From: Methylobacterium nodulans ORS 2060
GTDB lineage: Bacteria; Pseudomonadota; Alphaproteobacteria; Rhizobiales; Beijerinckiaceae
Direction of reading: 5' to 3'
Assembly (NCBI RefSeq): GCF_000022085.1
Contig: NC_011894.1
Span: 398,501 to 462,500 of the forward strand
DNA length: 64,000 nt
In this document: one piece after another, positions 2,570 through 47,415 of the stretch
Position numbering within the stretch: the stretch's first letter is position 1
Layout of the letters: each line of letters starts with the position of its first letter
The notes under the pieces: generated by a model
Seen by the model: only the letters and a program-made list of their open reading frames with translations
Told to the model about the DNA's origin: nothing
Databases searched by the model: none
Translations under genes and position numbers: made by a program

Positions 2570-3493
2570 ATGCCCGTGCAGCAGCACGGGCGCGCCCGCC
2601 CCAACGAGTTGATGCGCATGCGATTCGATCTTCTGGCCGGTGCCGGCGCGGCGCCGCTCGCGCCCGCCATGCGGGCGCCGGCCGTGCTGGTGTTCGATTC
2701 CGGCCTCGGCGGCCTCACGGTGCTGGCGGAGGTGCGGCGGGCCCGACCCGACGCGCGGGTCGTCTATGCGGCCGACGACGCGGCCTTCCCGTATGGCGAC
2801 CTGTCGGAGCCGGCCCTGGTGGCGCGGGTGGTCGCCGTGATGGAGCGCCTGATCGCCCTGCACGCCCCCGACCTCGTGGTGGTCGCCTGCAACACCGCGA
2901 CGACGCTGGTGCTGCCTGCCCTGCGGGCGCGCTTTGCGATTCCGTTCGTCGGCACGGTTCCGGCGATCAAGCCGGCCGCCGCCGCGACGCGCTCGGGGCT
3001 GATCAGCGTCCTCGCCACCCCGGGCACGGTGCGGCGCGACTATACCCGCGAGCTGATCGACGCCTATGCGGGTGCCTACGCCGTCACCCTCGTCGGGGCG
3101 ACGCGGCTTGCCGCCTTCGCGGAGGCGGAACTGGCCGGCACGCCGGTGGGCGACGACCTTCTGCGGGAGGAGATCGCCCCCTGCTTCGTCGGCGCGGGCG
3201 AGAGCCGCACCGACGTGGTGGTGCTCGGCTGCACGCATTATCCGTTGCTGCTGCGGCGCTTCGAGCGGCTCGTCCCCTGGCCCGTCACCTGGATCGACCC
3301 CGCCCCGGCCATCGCCCGGCGGATGGCCCAGCTTCTCGGCCCGGCGCCGCACCCGGCGCCGCCGGAGGATGCGGCGCCGGTGGCGGCGGTGTTCACCGGC
3401 GGCGAGCGCATCACGCCGTCCTTACGCGACGCGCTCGCCGCACGGGGGATGGGGTCCATCGCGGTCGAGGCGATGCCGCTCGCCCGGCAGTGA
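2570..3493 (+). CDS. murI: Glutamate racemase MurI
   Basis: Glutamate racemase interconverts L- and D-glutamate for peptidoglycan precursors. The diagnostic elements are present: FDSGLGGLTVL near the N terminus, the first catalytic cysteine in ACNTATT and the second in LGCTHYPLL, placed as in the two-base mechanism. The reading frame stays open far upstream, but that part is antisense to egtB. I chose ATG 2570 (307 aa); in-frame ATGs at 2612, 2618 and 2669 are also possible, and the last would begin right before the conserved region. The stop overlaps the GTG of the following hydrolase (GTGA), suggesting translational coupling. Confidence 0.9.
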   Translation: MPVQQHGRARPNELMRMRFDLLAGAGAAPLAPAMRAPAVLVFDSGLGGLTVLAEVRRARPDARVVYAADDAAFPYGDLSEPALVARVVAVMERLIALHAPDLVVVACNTATTLVLPALRARFAIPFVGTVPAIKPAAAATRSGLISVLATPGTVRRDYTRELIDAYAGAYAVTLVGATRLAAFAEAELAGTPVGDDLLREEIAPCFVGAGESRTDVVVLGCTHYPLLLRRFERLVPWPVTWIDPAPAIARRMAQLLGPAPHPAPPEDAAPVAAVFTGGERITPSLRDALAARGMGSIAVEAMPLARQ

Positions 3494-16615: not shown

Positions 16616-16756
16616 CGGCGGCGCATCGGGGCCGCCTGCACTTAGCAGCACCCGACAGATGGGGTGATTGGGGTCTTAGCCGAGGGTGGCTGCTCCGTTC
16701 GGGATGTTGGAACGTGGTCCGTGTTGAGCGGCCACAAGCATCGGGAAGGAGCAGCC

Positions 16757-17803
16757 GTGAAGTATTATGCCGGACTGGACGTTTCGCTGGAAGAGACCGC
16801 GATCTGCGTTGTCGACGATACGGGTCGGATCGTGCGGGAGGCGCGGGCGGCGAGTGAGCCTGGCGCGCTGGTGCAGGCGCTGAACCAGATCGGCCTGCCC
16901 CTGGAGCGCATCGGCCTGGAAGCGTGCTCGCTGACGGCCTGGCTGCACGACGGCCTGCGCGAGGCGGGCTTGCCGGCGATCTGCATCGAGACGCGCCAGG
17001 CCAATGCCGCGATGAAGACGATGCCCAACAAGACCGACCGCAACGACGCACGCGCCCTGGCGCAGATCATGCGGACGGGCTGGTTCCGGCAGGTCCATGT
17101 CAAGAGCCGTCAGTGCCGGCTGTGGCGTTCGCTGCTGGTGGCGCGCCGCACGGTGCTCAACGAGATGCGTTCGATCGAGAACGTGGTGCGGGGGATCCTG
17201 CGCGAAGCCGGGCTCAAGCTCGGCACGCCTGGCCGTGCAGCCTTCGCCGGCCGCGTACGCGAACTGGCCGAGGGCGTGCCCCTGATGACGCAGCTCGTCG
17301 AACCGCTCCTGGAGGTGCTGGCCAGCATGCTGACCGCACTCGCCGGCTTGACGAAGCAGGTCATGGATCTCGTCAAGAAAGAGGCGGTCTGCCAGCGGCT
17401 GATGAGCGTGCCGGGCGTCGGCCCCATCACCGCGCTTGCCTTCCGGGCGACGATCGACCGGCCCGACCGGTTCAGGCGCTCGCGCGACGTCGGCGCCCAT
17501 CTCGGTCTGACGCCGGCGCGCTACCAGTCCGGCGAGACCGACATCCAGGGCAAGATCAGCCGTTGCGGCGACGAACTCGCGCGCACCGCGCTCTACGAGG
17601 CGGCGCATACGCTGCTGGTGCGGAGCCAGAAATGGTCGAGCCTGCGCGCCTGGGGGATGAAGATCGCCAGGCGTCGCGGCATGGCCCGCGCCCGCGTCGC
17701 GGTCGCCCGCAAGCTCGCCGTCATCCTCCATCGCATGTGGAGCGACGGCACCGCGTTCCGCTGGGGTAAGGAGCCCGCAGAGGGTGCCACGCTCGCAGGA
17801 TGA
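16757..17803 (+). CDS. IS110-family transposase (DEDD recombinase)
   Basis: A 348-aa transposase. The RuvC-like DEDD tetrad is intact: D8 (GLDVS), E55 (GLEAC), D94 and D97 (TDRNDARALAQ). A helical linker leads to the C-terminal Tnp domain with the helix-hairpin-like VPGVGPITALAF and the QSGE motif, whose serine (S258) is the expected second active-site nucleophile. The protein therefore looks functional. The start is GTG 16757, with AGGAGCA just upstream. IS110 enzymes recombine DNA using a structured RNA made from the element's own non-coding end. Confidence 0.93.
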   Translation: MKYYAGLDVSLEETAICVVDDTGRIVREARAASEPGALVQALNQIGLPLERIGLEACSLTAWLHDGLREAGLPAICIETRQANAAMKTMPNKTDRNDARALAQIMRTGWFRQVHVKSRQCRLWRSLLVARRTVLNEMRSIENVVRGILREAGLKLGTPGRAAFAGRVRELAEGVPLMTQLVEPLLEVLASMLTALAGLTKQVMDLVKKEAVCQRLMSVPGVGPITALAFRATIDRPDRFRRSRDVGAHLGLTPARYQSGETDIQGKISRCGDELARTALYEAAHTLLVRSQKWSSLRAWGMKIARRRGMARARVAVARKLAVILHRMWSDGTAFRWGKEPAEGATLAG

Positions 17804-18069
17804 CGCCGTCACCGCGAAACAGGAGGGCAAAACACCACGCATGAACCCGAAAGGGTGAACCGGATCGTTCCCGTGGGGACGATGGGCCTGGCGATCTCGT
17901 TGAGAGTCCAGAACCTGCGGGTGCAAACCCGCAAGGTCGTGAAACAGATTGAGACGCCTCGCCCTCCTGACCCCATCATGCGGCGGCCAAGCGCCGACCG
18001 CGAAGAGAAGCGTGTGACCCACGGGGCGACACAAGCCGGAGAAACCACAACGAGCAGCTTGACCTAAAC
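17804..18069 (+). ncRNA. Candidate bridge/seeker RNA of the IS110-family element
   Basis: The right non-coding end holds a row of hairpins: ACCC-GAAA-GGGT at 17845-17856 (GNRA tetraloop), an 8-bp stem with one wobble at 17864-17883, and a 10-bp bulged stem with a GCAA tetraloop at 17913-17937. Structured RNAs of this kind, encoded at the right end in IS1111-type elements, guide target and donor recognition by the transposase. Position, length and structure fit; the target- and donor-binding loops were not assigned, and transcript ends are unknown. Confidence 0.45.
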
Positions 18070-18104
18070 GACCCCAATCAGAGAAGAGAAGACTCTCAGC
18101 CGAA

Positions 18105-18265
18105 ATAGAACCTGACCTGCGTGGCAGCCGCCAAGGCCCTCATGCTGAGGTGCTGGCGATCTGTGATCGCCAGCACCTCAGCATGAGGGCCTTGGCGGCT
18201 GCCATCGGAGGGGGCGTCCATGCGGCTGGTTTCATCCGTCAGAGGCAGCCCGGCCGGAGAAGAGA
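18105..18265. repeat. Dispersed repeat copy (family A) with long palindrome
   Basis: Starts with TAGAACCTGACCTGCGTGGC and continues through a palindromic core to CGGCTGGTTTCATCC and a CAGCCCGGCC tail. The same order of blocks, with substitutions, is found at 29713-29970, where the two arms are separated by about 110 bases instead of 3. Confidence 0.75.
18122..18204. repeat. Perfect 40-bp inverted repeat, 3-base loop
   Basis: Positions 18122-18161 are exactly complementary to 18165-18204, leaving only TGT (18162-18164) unpaired. The arms include CTCATGCTGAGGTGCTGG, the family A core. It lies just right of the insertion sequence and downstream of the minus-strand UGM-like gene, where it could also stop transcription. 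Confidence 0.9.
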
Positions 18266-45687: not shown

Positions 45688-47415
45688 GTGTCCAACACGC
45701 CCAAACCCGCGAGCCTGCCCCGCGCCGCCTATGCGGGCATGTTCGGCCCGACCAAGGGCGACCGCATCCGGCTCGCCGATACCTGCCTCGTCATTGAGGT
45801 CGAGCACGACCACACCCGCTACGGCGAGGAGGTGAAGTTCGGCGGCGGCAAGGTGATCCGCGACGGAATGGGCCAGGGGCAGGCGAGCAACGCCGCCGGT
45901 GCCGTCGACACCGTGATCACCAATGCGGTCGTCCTCGATCATTGGGGCATCGTGAAATGCGATGTCGGCCTGACAGGCGGGCGCATCGCGGCGCTCGGCA
46001 AGGCCGGCAATCCGGACATTCAGGACGGCGTCACCATCGTGGTCGGGCCCGGCACCGAGGTAATCGCGGGCGAGGGCAAGATCCTCACTGCGGGCGGCTT
46101 CGACAGCCACATCCACTACATCTGCCCGCAGCAGATCGAGGAGGCACTGAATTCCGGCGTCACCACGATGCTGGGCGGCGGGACGGGCCCGGCGCATGGC
46201 ACCTTCGCCACCACCTGCACGCCCGGCCCCTGGCACATCGCCCGGATGATCGAGGCCGCCGACGCCTTCCCGATGAACCTGGCCTTCGCCGGCAAGGGAA
46301 ATGCCTCACGGCCCGAGAGCCTGGAGGAGATGATCCGGGCGGGCGCCTGCGCGCTCAAGCTGCACGAGGATTGGGGCACGACGCCCGCTGCGATCGATTG
46401 CTGCCTTACGGTCGCGGATTCCCACGACGTGCAGGTCATGATCCACACCGACACGCTCAACGAATCGGGCTTCGTCGAGGACACGATCGCGGCCTTCAAG
46501 GGCCGCACCATCCATGCCTTCCACACCGAGGGGGCCGGCGGCGGGCACGCGCCCGACATCATCAAGGTGGCGGGGCTTCCGAACGTGCTGCCCTCCTCCA
46601 CCAACCCGACCCGGCCCTACACGCGCAACACCATCGACGAGCATCTCGACATGCTGATGGTGTGCCATCACCTGTCGCCCGCGATCCCCGAGGATCTCGC
46701 CTTCGCGGAGAGCCGCATCCGCAAGGAGACGATCGCGGCCGAGGACATCCTGCACGATCTCGGCGCCCTCTCGATCATGTCCTCGGACAGCCAGGCCATG
46801 GGCCGCGTCGGCGAGGTGGTGATCCGCACATGGCAGACCGCCGACAAGATGAAGCGCCAGCGCGGCGCCCTGCCGGGCGATTCGGCCGGCAATGACAACC
46901 TGCGCGCCCGGCGCTACGTGGCGAAGTACACGATCAACCCGGCGATCGCGCACGGCGTGGCGAAGCACATCGGCTCGGTCGAGCCGGGCAAGCTCGCCGA
47001 CCTCGTCCTGTGGTCGCCCGCCTTCTTCGGCGTGAAGCCCGACCTCGTCATCAAGGGCGGCGCCATCGCGACGGCGCCGATGGGCGACCCGAACGCCTCG
47101 ATCCCGACGCCCCAGCCGGTGCATTACCGGCCGATGTTCGGCGCCTTCGGCCGGGTGCCCGCCACCACCTCCCTCACCTTCGTGTCGAAGGCGGCGGTCG
47201 AAGCGGGCCTGCGCGACCGGCTGCGCGTGCAGAAGGACCTCGTCGCGGTCGAGAACGTGCGCGGCGGCATCGGCAAGCGCAGCATGATTCTCAACGACGC
47301 CACGCCGGTGATCGAGGTCGATCCCGAGACCTACGACGTGCGGGCGGACGGGCAGCTCCTCGTCTGCGAGCCCGCCGAGGTGGTGCCGATGGCGCAGCGG
47401 TATTTTCTCTTCTGA
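45688..47415 (+). CDS. ureC: Urease alpha subunit
   Basis: The catalytic subunit, a nickel amidohydrolase splitting urea to ammonia and carbamate. 575 aa with all active-site elements: [11 protein letters not shown] (first histidines), the carbamylated lysine in [13 protein letters not shown], histidines in [10 protein letters not shown] and [13 protein letters not shown], the flap [20 protein letters not shown], and the nickel aspartate in [12 protein letters not shown]. It starts at GTG 45688, 33 bases after ureAB. Downstream lies a peptide-type ABC importer instead of ureEFG. Confidence 0.97.

Follow-up and report, generated by a model that had tools for sequence, protein, structure and literature searches.

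The window, meaning the whole 64,000-nucleotide stretch of Methylobacterium nodulans ORS 2060 analysed here, carries at 16657-18089 an insertion sequence of the IS110 family, IS1111 group, of which the genome holds six near-identical copies in total. Three copies are identical, L002 and L005 carry one substitution each, and L006 has two, one of them internal and the other at the right repeat's edge. The same genome also holds L007, a relative with 75% identity. The protein-coding and terminal features are as follows.

16657-16664, plus strand: left end (LE) extension AG-ATGGGG, core AG plus right-donor half ATGGGG; in 6/6 copies, with RNA 17970-17977 complementary to GATGGGGT
16665-16675, plus strand: left sub-terminal inverted repeat TGATTGGGGTC; from copy comparison
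16757-17803, plus strand: IS110-family (IS1111 group) DEDD transposase, 348 aa, GTG start; PF01548 and PF02371, NF033542, IS621 alignment
18058-18063, plus strand: CTTGAC, possible -35 box of a promoter that would form at the circle junction; 24 of 31 right-end rows, by eye
18070-18080, plus strand: right sub-terminal inverted repeat GACCCCAATCA; from copy comparison
18080-18091, plus strand: right end AGAGA AGAGA and core AG, the AGAGA unit being doubled in the window copy
18092-18099, plus strand: right target half ACTCTCAG, flank rather than element; 7 Watson-Crick pairs and 1 G-U of 8 with the T guide

The transposase matches the NCBIfam model NF033542 ('IS110 family RNA-guided transposase') with 260 bits against a cut-off of 140. 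Among the traits that place the element in the IS110 family, IS1111 group, a DEDD RuvC-like N-terminal domain is joined to a Transposase_20 domain with the conserved serine, and the non-coding region is longer downstream of the gene than upstream. The right end counts 266 bases, close to the roughly 270 given in the first-pass annotation of this DNA, and 92 bases separate the start of the left repeat from the gene. The DEDD tetrad and the serine that the annotation had read in the protein are indeed kept, as D8, E55, D94, D97 and S258 align with the acidic residues and serine of IS621, which we take to be its catalytic residues. In copy L005, a TAG stop interrupts the transposase gene at the place of window position 17090, so this copy is probably mobile only in trans. 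The left end reads AGATGGGG-TGATTGGGGTC from 16657, and the sub-terminal inverted repeats claimed earlier were found to be perfect over 11/11 bp; in the IS1111 group such repeats usually span 11-13 bp, according to sections of PMC11187229.

A conserved structured RNA of about 173 nt (17861-18033) lies within the right end. Its consensus fold was derived from 31 distinct right ends (the window, L007 and 29 from other genomes), whose transposases are 73-89% identical in the best segment.

17845-17856, plus strand: upstream GAAA-loop hairpin ACCC-GAAA-GGGT; alignment columns 126-137, 2/4 pairs changed on both sides
17861-18033, plus strand: putative seekRNA/bridge RNA body, match to covariance model R1; 200.9 bits, as a training member
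17917-17932, plus strand: apical hairpin of the target loop, GCGGGU-GCAA-ACCCGC; helix 3, 4/8 pairs changed on both sides
17980-18001, plus strand: donor-half hairpin GCGGCGGC...GCCGACCGC, inside the multiloop; helix 4, 100% of cells paired, 0 two-sided changes

Two parts are enclosed by an outer stem: the target arm at 17884-17964, whose apical hairpin is variable and which contains an internal loop, and the multiloop hairpin at 17980-18001. Both GNRA hairpins named in the first-pass annotation are present, with the GAAA loop at 17849-17852 and the GCAA loop at 17923-17926 on the stem GCGGGT/ACCCGC. The 42 consensus pairs are formed in 97.2% of cells (30 sequences, 29 distinct), and pairing falls to 37-45% when the partner is slid by 1-3 columns. 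Two-sided changes occur at 10 pairs and in 39 cells, compared with 5.1 and 14.6 in shuffles, 0/500 of which reached as high; covariation among homologous elements, whose absence the first-pass annotation had named as one of the refuting results, is therefore found. The donor hairpin lacks two-sided changes, so covariation gives no test of it. The strand 17846-18044 also folds better than its shuffles (z -2.67; 2/200 as stable). At the gathering thresholds of Rfam 15, 0 families match the right end; elsewhere in the window, 5_ureB_sRNA (RF02514) matches 45857-46142 on the minus strand with 88 bits. Model R1, built from the aligned right ends, was run on 43 loci that had not been used in training: it matches 37 at E < 0.01, from 165 down to 21 bits, a few of these being one place fetched twice, and finds no match in L064, L081, L100, L108, L134 and L157. 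Within the own genome it marks 14 places. Seven are accounted for by the six copies and L007, and the rest by a broken relative, two weak places and another IS110 element that is present four times. Those four copies (C7:268117, 2367567, 6252858; C5:344190) carry a divergent R1 RNA of 61 bits.

G+C-rich strands fold readily, and the right end might be a mere stable 3' untranslated region or terminator whose guide matches arise by chance. The two-sided changes argue against this, and so does the agreement between two segments of the target loop and the DNA flanking the insertions.

17900-17909, plus strand: T guide UUGAGAGUCC, pairs with the top strand of the right target flank GGACTCTNAG; from flank pairing, shuffles and covariation
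17939-17947, plus strand: B guide GUGAAACAG, sense of the left target flank ...AAACAG, pairs with the bottom strand; from flank comparison and covariation

The six copies lie in different surroundings, and their flanks share only ..ACAG on the left and an RCTCTNAG-like stretch on the right, where they read GGACTCTCAG or nearly so. To a right flank of this type, UUGAGAGUCC at 17900 is complementary, with its last base as G-U. At the window copy, the right flank pairs 8/8 including 1 G-U, and the left flank matches the B guide at 2/7 positions outside the core. The computed order, with the top-strand match 5' of the bottom-strand match, is that described for IS1111 seekRNAs in parts of Siddiquee et al. 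2024 (PMC11187229). Among 2000 dinucleotide shuffles of the right end, 16 reach a 9/10 match to GGACTCTCAG and 121 hold GAAACAG, and 0 do both.

The close family follows three target programs. In program A the right flank is RCTCTNAG and the target reads ..C-NG-RCTCTNAG; in program B (Mesorhizobium) the right flank is CCTGCTAG, the guide UUAGCAGG and the left flank UUCAACAG; in program C (Jiella) an AATYG-like right flank goes with the guide CRAUUCU. The program B targets (L043, L047, L055 and L072, Mesorhizobium) read TTCAACAG/CCTGCTAG. Program C insertions (L056-L062 and L083, Jiella) follow GAAACAG or similar, and a GTTTCA arm 15-20 bases on in 5/8, seen by eye, makes an imperfect palindromic target.

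Guides and flanks change together beyond shuffled pairings, although the permutation tests correct only partly for relatedness. Over 38 copies of the close family, the T guide matches its flank at 5.5/8 positions versus 4.5 in shuffled pairings (p 5e-5) and the B guide at 4.3/7 versus 3.8 (p 1e-4). This set leaves out L006, which has no GAGA unit after the repeat; repeat sightings of a copy (L010, L011, L046, L048, L050, L067); L074, whose flanks equal those of L068; L042, at a contig end with N; and distant loci with false repeats (score < 10 against the consensus). L003, L007 and L043, whose registers are shifted by right-end slips, were counted as misses. With one row per distinct guide, the close-family signal holds for T (p 0.0013, 13 guides) and is weak for B (p 0.06, 8 guides). 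In fixed model columns over 21 elements, T matches 6.2/8 versus 4.1 shuffled and B 5.1/7 versus 2.1, each with p 1e-5, the smallest value obtainable from 100,000 shuffles; most of the 21 have distinct guides. The own guide is best or tied for the own flank in 14/21 elements for T, placed within the T segment, and in 19/21 for B. The 21 come from 35 aligned RNAs after removal of the near-copies L113 and L078 and of 12 RNAs lacking located ends, and represent the close family by one RNA per program (window, L043, L056). The 'window' row used the L002 flanks, which go with the same RNA and give a left match of 3/7 versus 2/7 for the window copy. Given this covariation in both sets (n = 38 and n = 21), the failure of all 2000 shuffles to give both guide matches and the 0/500 shuffles with as many two-sided changes, the untranslated-region or terminator explanation is hardly credible.

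Judged from the flanking sequences, the element appears to target the ends of IS5-family insertion sequences. One end of an IS5-family element (PF13340/PF01609, NF033580) makes up the left flank of L003; the genome has 18 near-identical copies of that end (L003's and 17 others; L121-L126; G000), and by match length only the end at L003 carries an IS1111 element there. All five inspected uninterrupted copies, out of the 17, read CCCAAC|GGACTCTNAG at the empty site; the L003 insertion thus lies between C and G, and the AG on the left and AATCAGAGAA on the right belong to the element. Target duplication is absent in this one case, as the L003 flanks abut just as in uninterrupted copies. The extensions past the repeats measure 8 + 4 bp, a count that yields the expected IS5 end for the most frequent arrangement, with one additional base on the right of L003; the IS1111 group has 7 + 3 in the parts of PMC11187229 that describe it.

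Of the 24 program A copies flanked by 800 bases or more, 16 have an IS5-family gene in the left flank, in 15 of them no more than 300 bp from the junction, compared with 2/24 within 300 bp of the right junction (Fisher p 2e-4 versus left). The profile used was built in rounds from the L003-flank transposase and hits in the same flanks. It detects no IS5-family gene beside 8/24 copies, namely the window copy, L002, L004, L006 and four relatives, and none in the left flank of the 11 program B and C copies (0/11; p 5e-4). IS5-type elements duplicate CTNAG or TNA at their targets. A simple pattern located the other terminus of the interrupted IS5 element in 6 of 23 copies with a recognised right pattern. 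As such a duplication would give, TNA is identical at both IS5 ends in five of them (L003, L012, L013, L051, L073); it differs in L016. In copies with both ends of the interrupted element identified, the site is the IS5 terminal repeat plus the TNA duplication. It is on the IS5 genes beside 15/24 copies, together with the terminal repeat and TNA at the site, that the apparent insertion into IS5-family ends is based.

The window copy is possibly an off-pattern insertion. When the own genome was searched for uninterrupted CAGGACTCTNAG, one site came up, which was uninformative, and the empty site came from the IS5-element copies instead. Insertion of the window copy inside the downstream repeat family was also considered and found no support, as ten repeat-family copies were compared and did not share GACTCTCAG. 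That family, which contains a long palindrome made of CTCATGCTGAGGTGCTGGCGATC and the inverted sequence, occupies 18100-18240 of the window after the element and recurs at more than 20 other loci of the genome.

A preference for IS5 ends could also come from the protein, through a liking for palindromic ends or a tolerance of insertions there, rather than from the RNA. IS1111 elements are indeed described in potentially folded sites, ISPa11 in REP and ISKpn4 in attC, in sections of PMC11187229. However, the relatives of programs B and C, which have different guides, occupy different sites, and these agree with the guides concerned. By the same profile, 0/11 of their left flanks hold an IS5-family gene, although at L047 (program B) an ORF 341 bp away matches IS5-/IS1182-type NCBIfam models below their cut-offs. 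Choice by the protein is thus a distinctly improbable account, and choice by the RNA guides is preferred.

The second loop of the RNA matches the ends of the element itself, and the donor-loop layout equals the target-loop layout, guide 1 going with the left end and guide 2 with the right end.

17970-17977, plus strand: donor guide 1 ACCCCAUC, complementary to LE GATGGGGT; from pairing, slid controls and the near-fixed-register test
18004-18010, plus strand: donor guide 2 AGAGAAG, sense of the right end AGAGA-AG and forming with the preceding bases a 5-nt repeat GAAGA-GAAG; from identity

Because the donor half hardly varies in the close family, no donor-guide test was possible within it. The left ends of distant relatives read ATACTG, ATAGCG, CATGCG, ATAGTA, ATGGTG and others, and over 11 donor types donor guide 1 gives 73 matches to the left end versus 64.1 in shuffled pairings (p 6e-4). 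Placement was free in that comparison, in which another element's RNA matched better in 6/11 rows and L134 was a miss (5/9). Slid-DNA controls gave p > 0.1 in 8/9 cases, and the neighbouring 3-base slide gave p 0.026. In a near-fixed register, that is, an 8-nt query inside an 11-12-nt window, nine types show 60 matches versus 47.8 shuffled (p 1.2e-4), and the own RNA came first in 4, shared first place in 4 and lost to another in 1; the weak types L100 and L134 fall outside the nine because model R1 found no RNA there. The 3' donor guide was located by pattern, and 3/57 elements without the pattern were left out. RNA and left end also share the core, AG or, in some distant relatives, AC, and agree in 52/54 elements. 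We dropped this agreement as independent evidence, since it amounts to essentially one change on the tree; the second change counted is L053, whose left end was misread.

The RNA may instead seek the target only, the downstream half being a binding or processing scaffold and the donor being recognised by the transposase via the sub-terminal repeats. This would fit the nearly invariant donor half of the close family and the donor matches that are partly common to several types. In the parts of Siddiquee et al. 2024 (PMC11187229) bearing on this point, an 82-nt RNA is sufficient for ISEc11, and the specifics of movement are not to be assumed alike in both families. Against it, the donor guide of distant relatives varies with the left end beyond shuffled pairings, and the slid controls are flat except for the neighbouring slide. 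We therefore regard a target-only RNA as rather unlikely, and favour separate donor guides complementary to the junction that a circular form would have, guide 1 from pairing and also covariation, guide 2 from identity.

The two 2024 papers, in the sections that concern this question, take different views of whether an RNA of the IS1111 type sets the donor in addition to the target (PMC11187229, PMC11208160). In the present family the target guides have been naturally reprogrammed many times and the donor guide several times, so that a test of compensatory change can settle the dispute. Open-licence papers yielded no statistical donor-guide test for the IS1111 group.

Since the guides match the flanks and covary with them, and the second loop matches the element's own ends, the right end very probably encodes an IS1111-type seekRNA/bridge RNA. 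This bears out the first-pass annotation, which had proposed a candidate bridge (seeker) RNA here and a comparison of its loops with the junctions: structural covariation supports the RNA, and loop sequences complementary to the target and donor junctions change along with these from relative to relative. By analogy with the published mechanism, the DEDD transposase would bind the right-end RNA and excise the element as a circle with the junction ..AATCAGAGA-AG-ATGGGG.., and strand exchange between circle and target would take place at the core dinucleotide.

Right ends vary in their register at this junction. Compared with the common form ..AATCAGAGA-NG.., L001 and L002 carry an additional AGAGA unit and L006 is without the unit, and the offsets are +1 base in L003, -1 base in L007 and +3 bases in L043. 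The near-identical copies L001-L006 thus differ by whole units, having 0, 1 or 2. A doubled unit was counted in 4 of 64 distinct parsed junctions, those of L001, L002, L075 and the distant L076; L080, the sister of L076, has a single AGAGA unit, and the second AGAGA of L075 fits that element's own T guide and is therefore preferably taken as target. L002 and L006 share a substitution absent from L001, so the extra unit was not simply inherited with one lineage. The GAAGA-GAAG repeat in the donor guide makes slipped pairing a natural candidate cause of the unit changes.

The same or nearly the same T guide occurs in relatives from Methylobacterium, Mesorhizobium, Nitrobacter, Bosea, Ensifer and Azospirillum. 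As a tentative proposal, possible but on balance doubtful, the RNA program would be a natural guide against insertion sequences that reads the conserved IS5 terminal repeat, and the element would spread by capping, and presumably disarming, other transposons, with the GAAGA-GAAG repeat letting recombination slip by one unit to give 0, 1 or 2 AGAGA.

The RNA kind and its scaffold are already known. The first-pass annotation had raised a new RNA scaffold, which does not stand: relatives carry the same scaffold, including L187 of Azospirillum sp. B510, an ISAzs32-family element by annotation and, at a very short distance, the closest described relative. The Extended Data Fig. 10 legend of Durrant et al. 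2024 (PMC11208160), the part of that paper concerned, names ISAzs32 as one of six elements for which bridge RNAs were predicted. The transposase of L187 is 73% identical to that of the window element, its RNA matches model R1 with 173 bits and bears the same T guide UUGAGAGUCC, and its left end, GGACAGATGGGGTGATTGGGG, is counted as a further likeness. Its B guide is GCCAGACAG rather than GUGAAACAG, and no right sub-terminal repeat was seen by eye in 2630-3000 of the locus, unlike the window element. As far as the relevant sections of PMC11187229 describe them, the IS1111-group seekRNAs of ISEc11, ISPa11 and ISKpn4 lie in a downstream non-coding region of elements with sub-terminal repeats, have the T guide 5' of B and leave no duplicated bases, as here (L003); the target differs, appearing to be an IS5-family end in the window element. 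The IS621 bridge RNA has, in the parts of Durrant et al. 2024 (PMC11208160) that present it, a target and a donor loop with two guide strands each and a shared core, as found here. In contrast to IS621, the RNA lies at the right rather than the left end, the donor nucleotides stand in a multiloop, and the T/B order differs, an order reported to be reversed between the IS1111 and IS110 types.

The closest parallel in target choice is that of IS4321/IS5075, IS1111 elements which, in the parts of PMC8269217 concerned, target the terminal inverted repeats of Tn21 and relatives. Like them, the window element appears specialised on the terminal repeats of another transposon, with the IS5 family interrupted here and the Tn3 family there. 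The choice of IS5-family ends may be new, as no description of an IS1111 element targeting them was found in open-licence papers. If true, it would be a second class of transposon ends, after Tn21, for RNA-guided specialisation, and it gives a short, predictable site.

In one Methylobacterium genome (L022), the RNA occurs twice, at 125-296 and 2421-2592 of the locus, about 2.3 kb apart, apparently in tandem elements.
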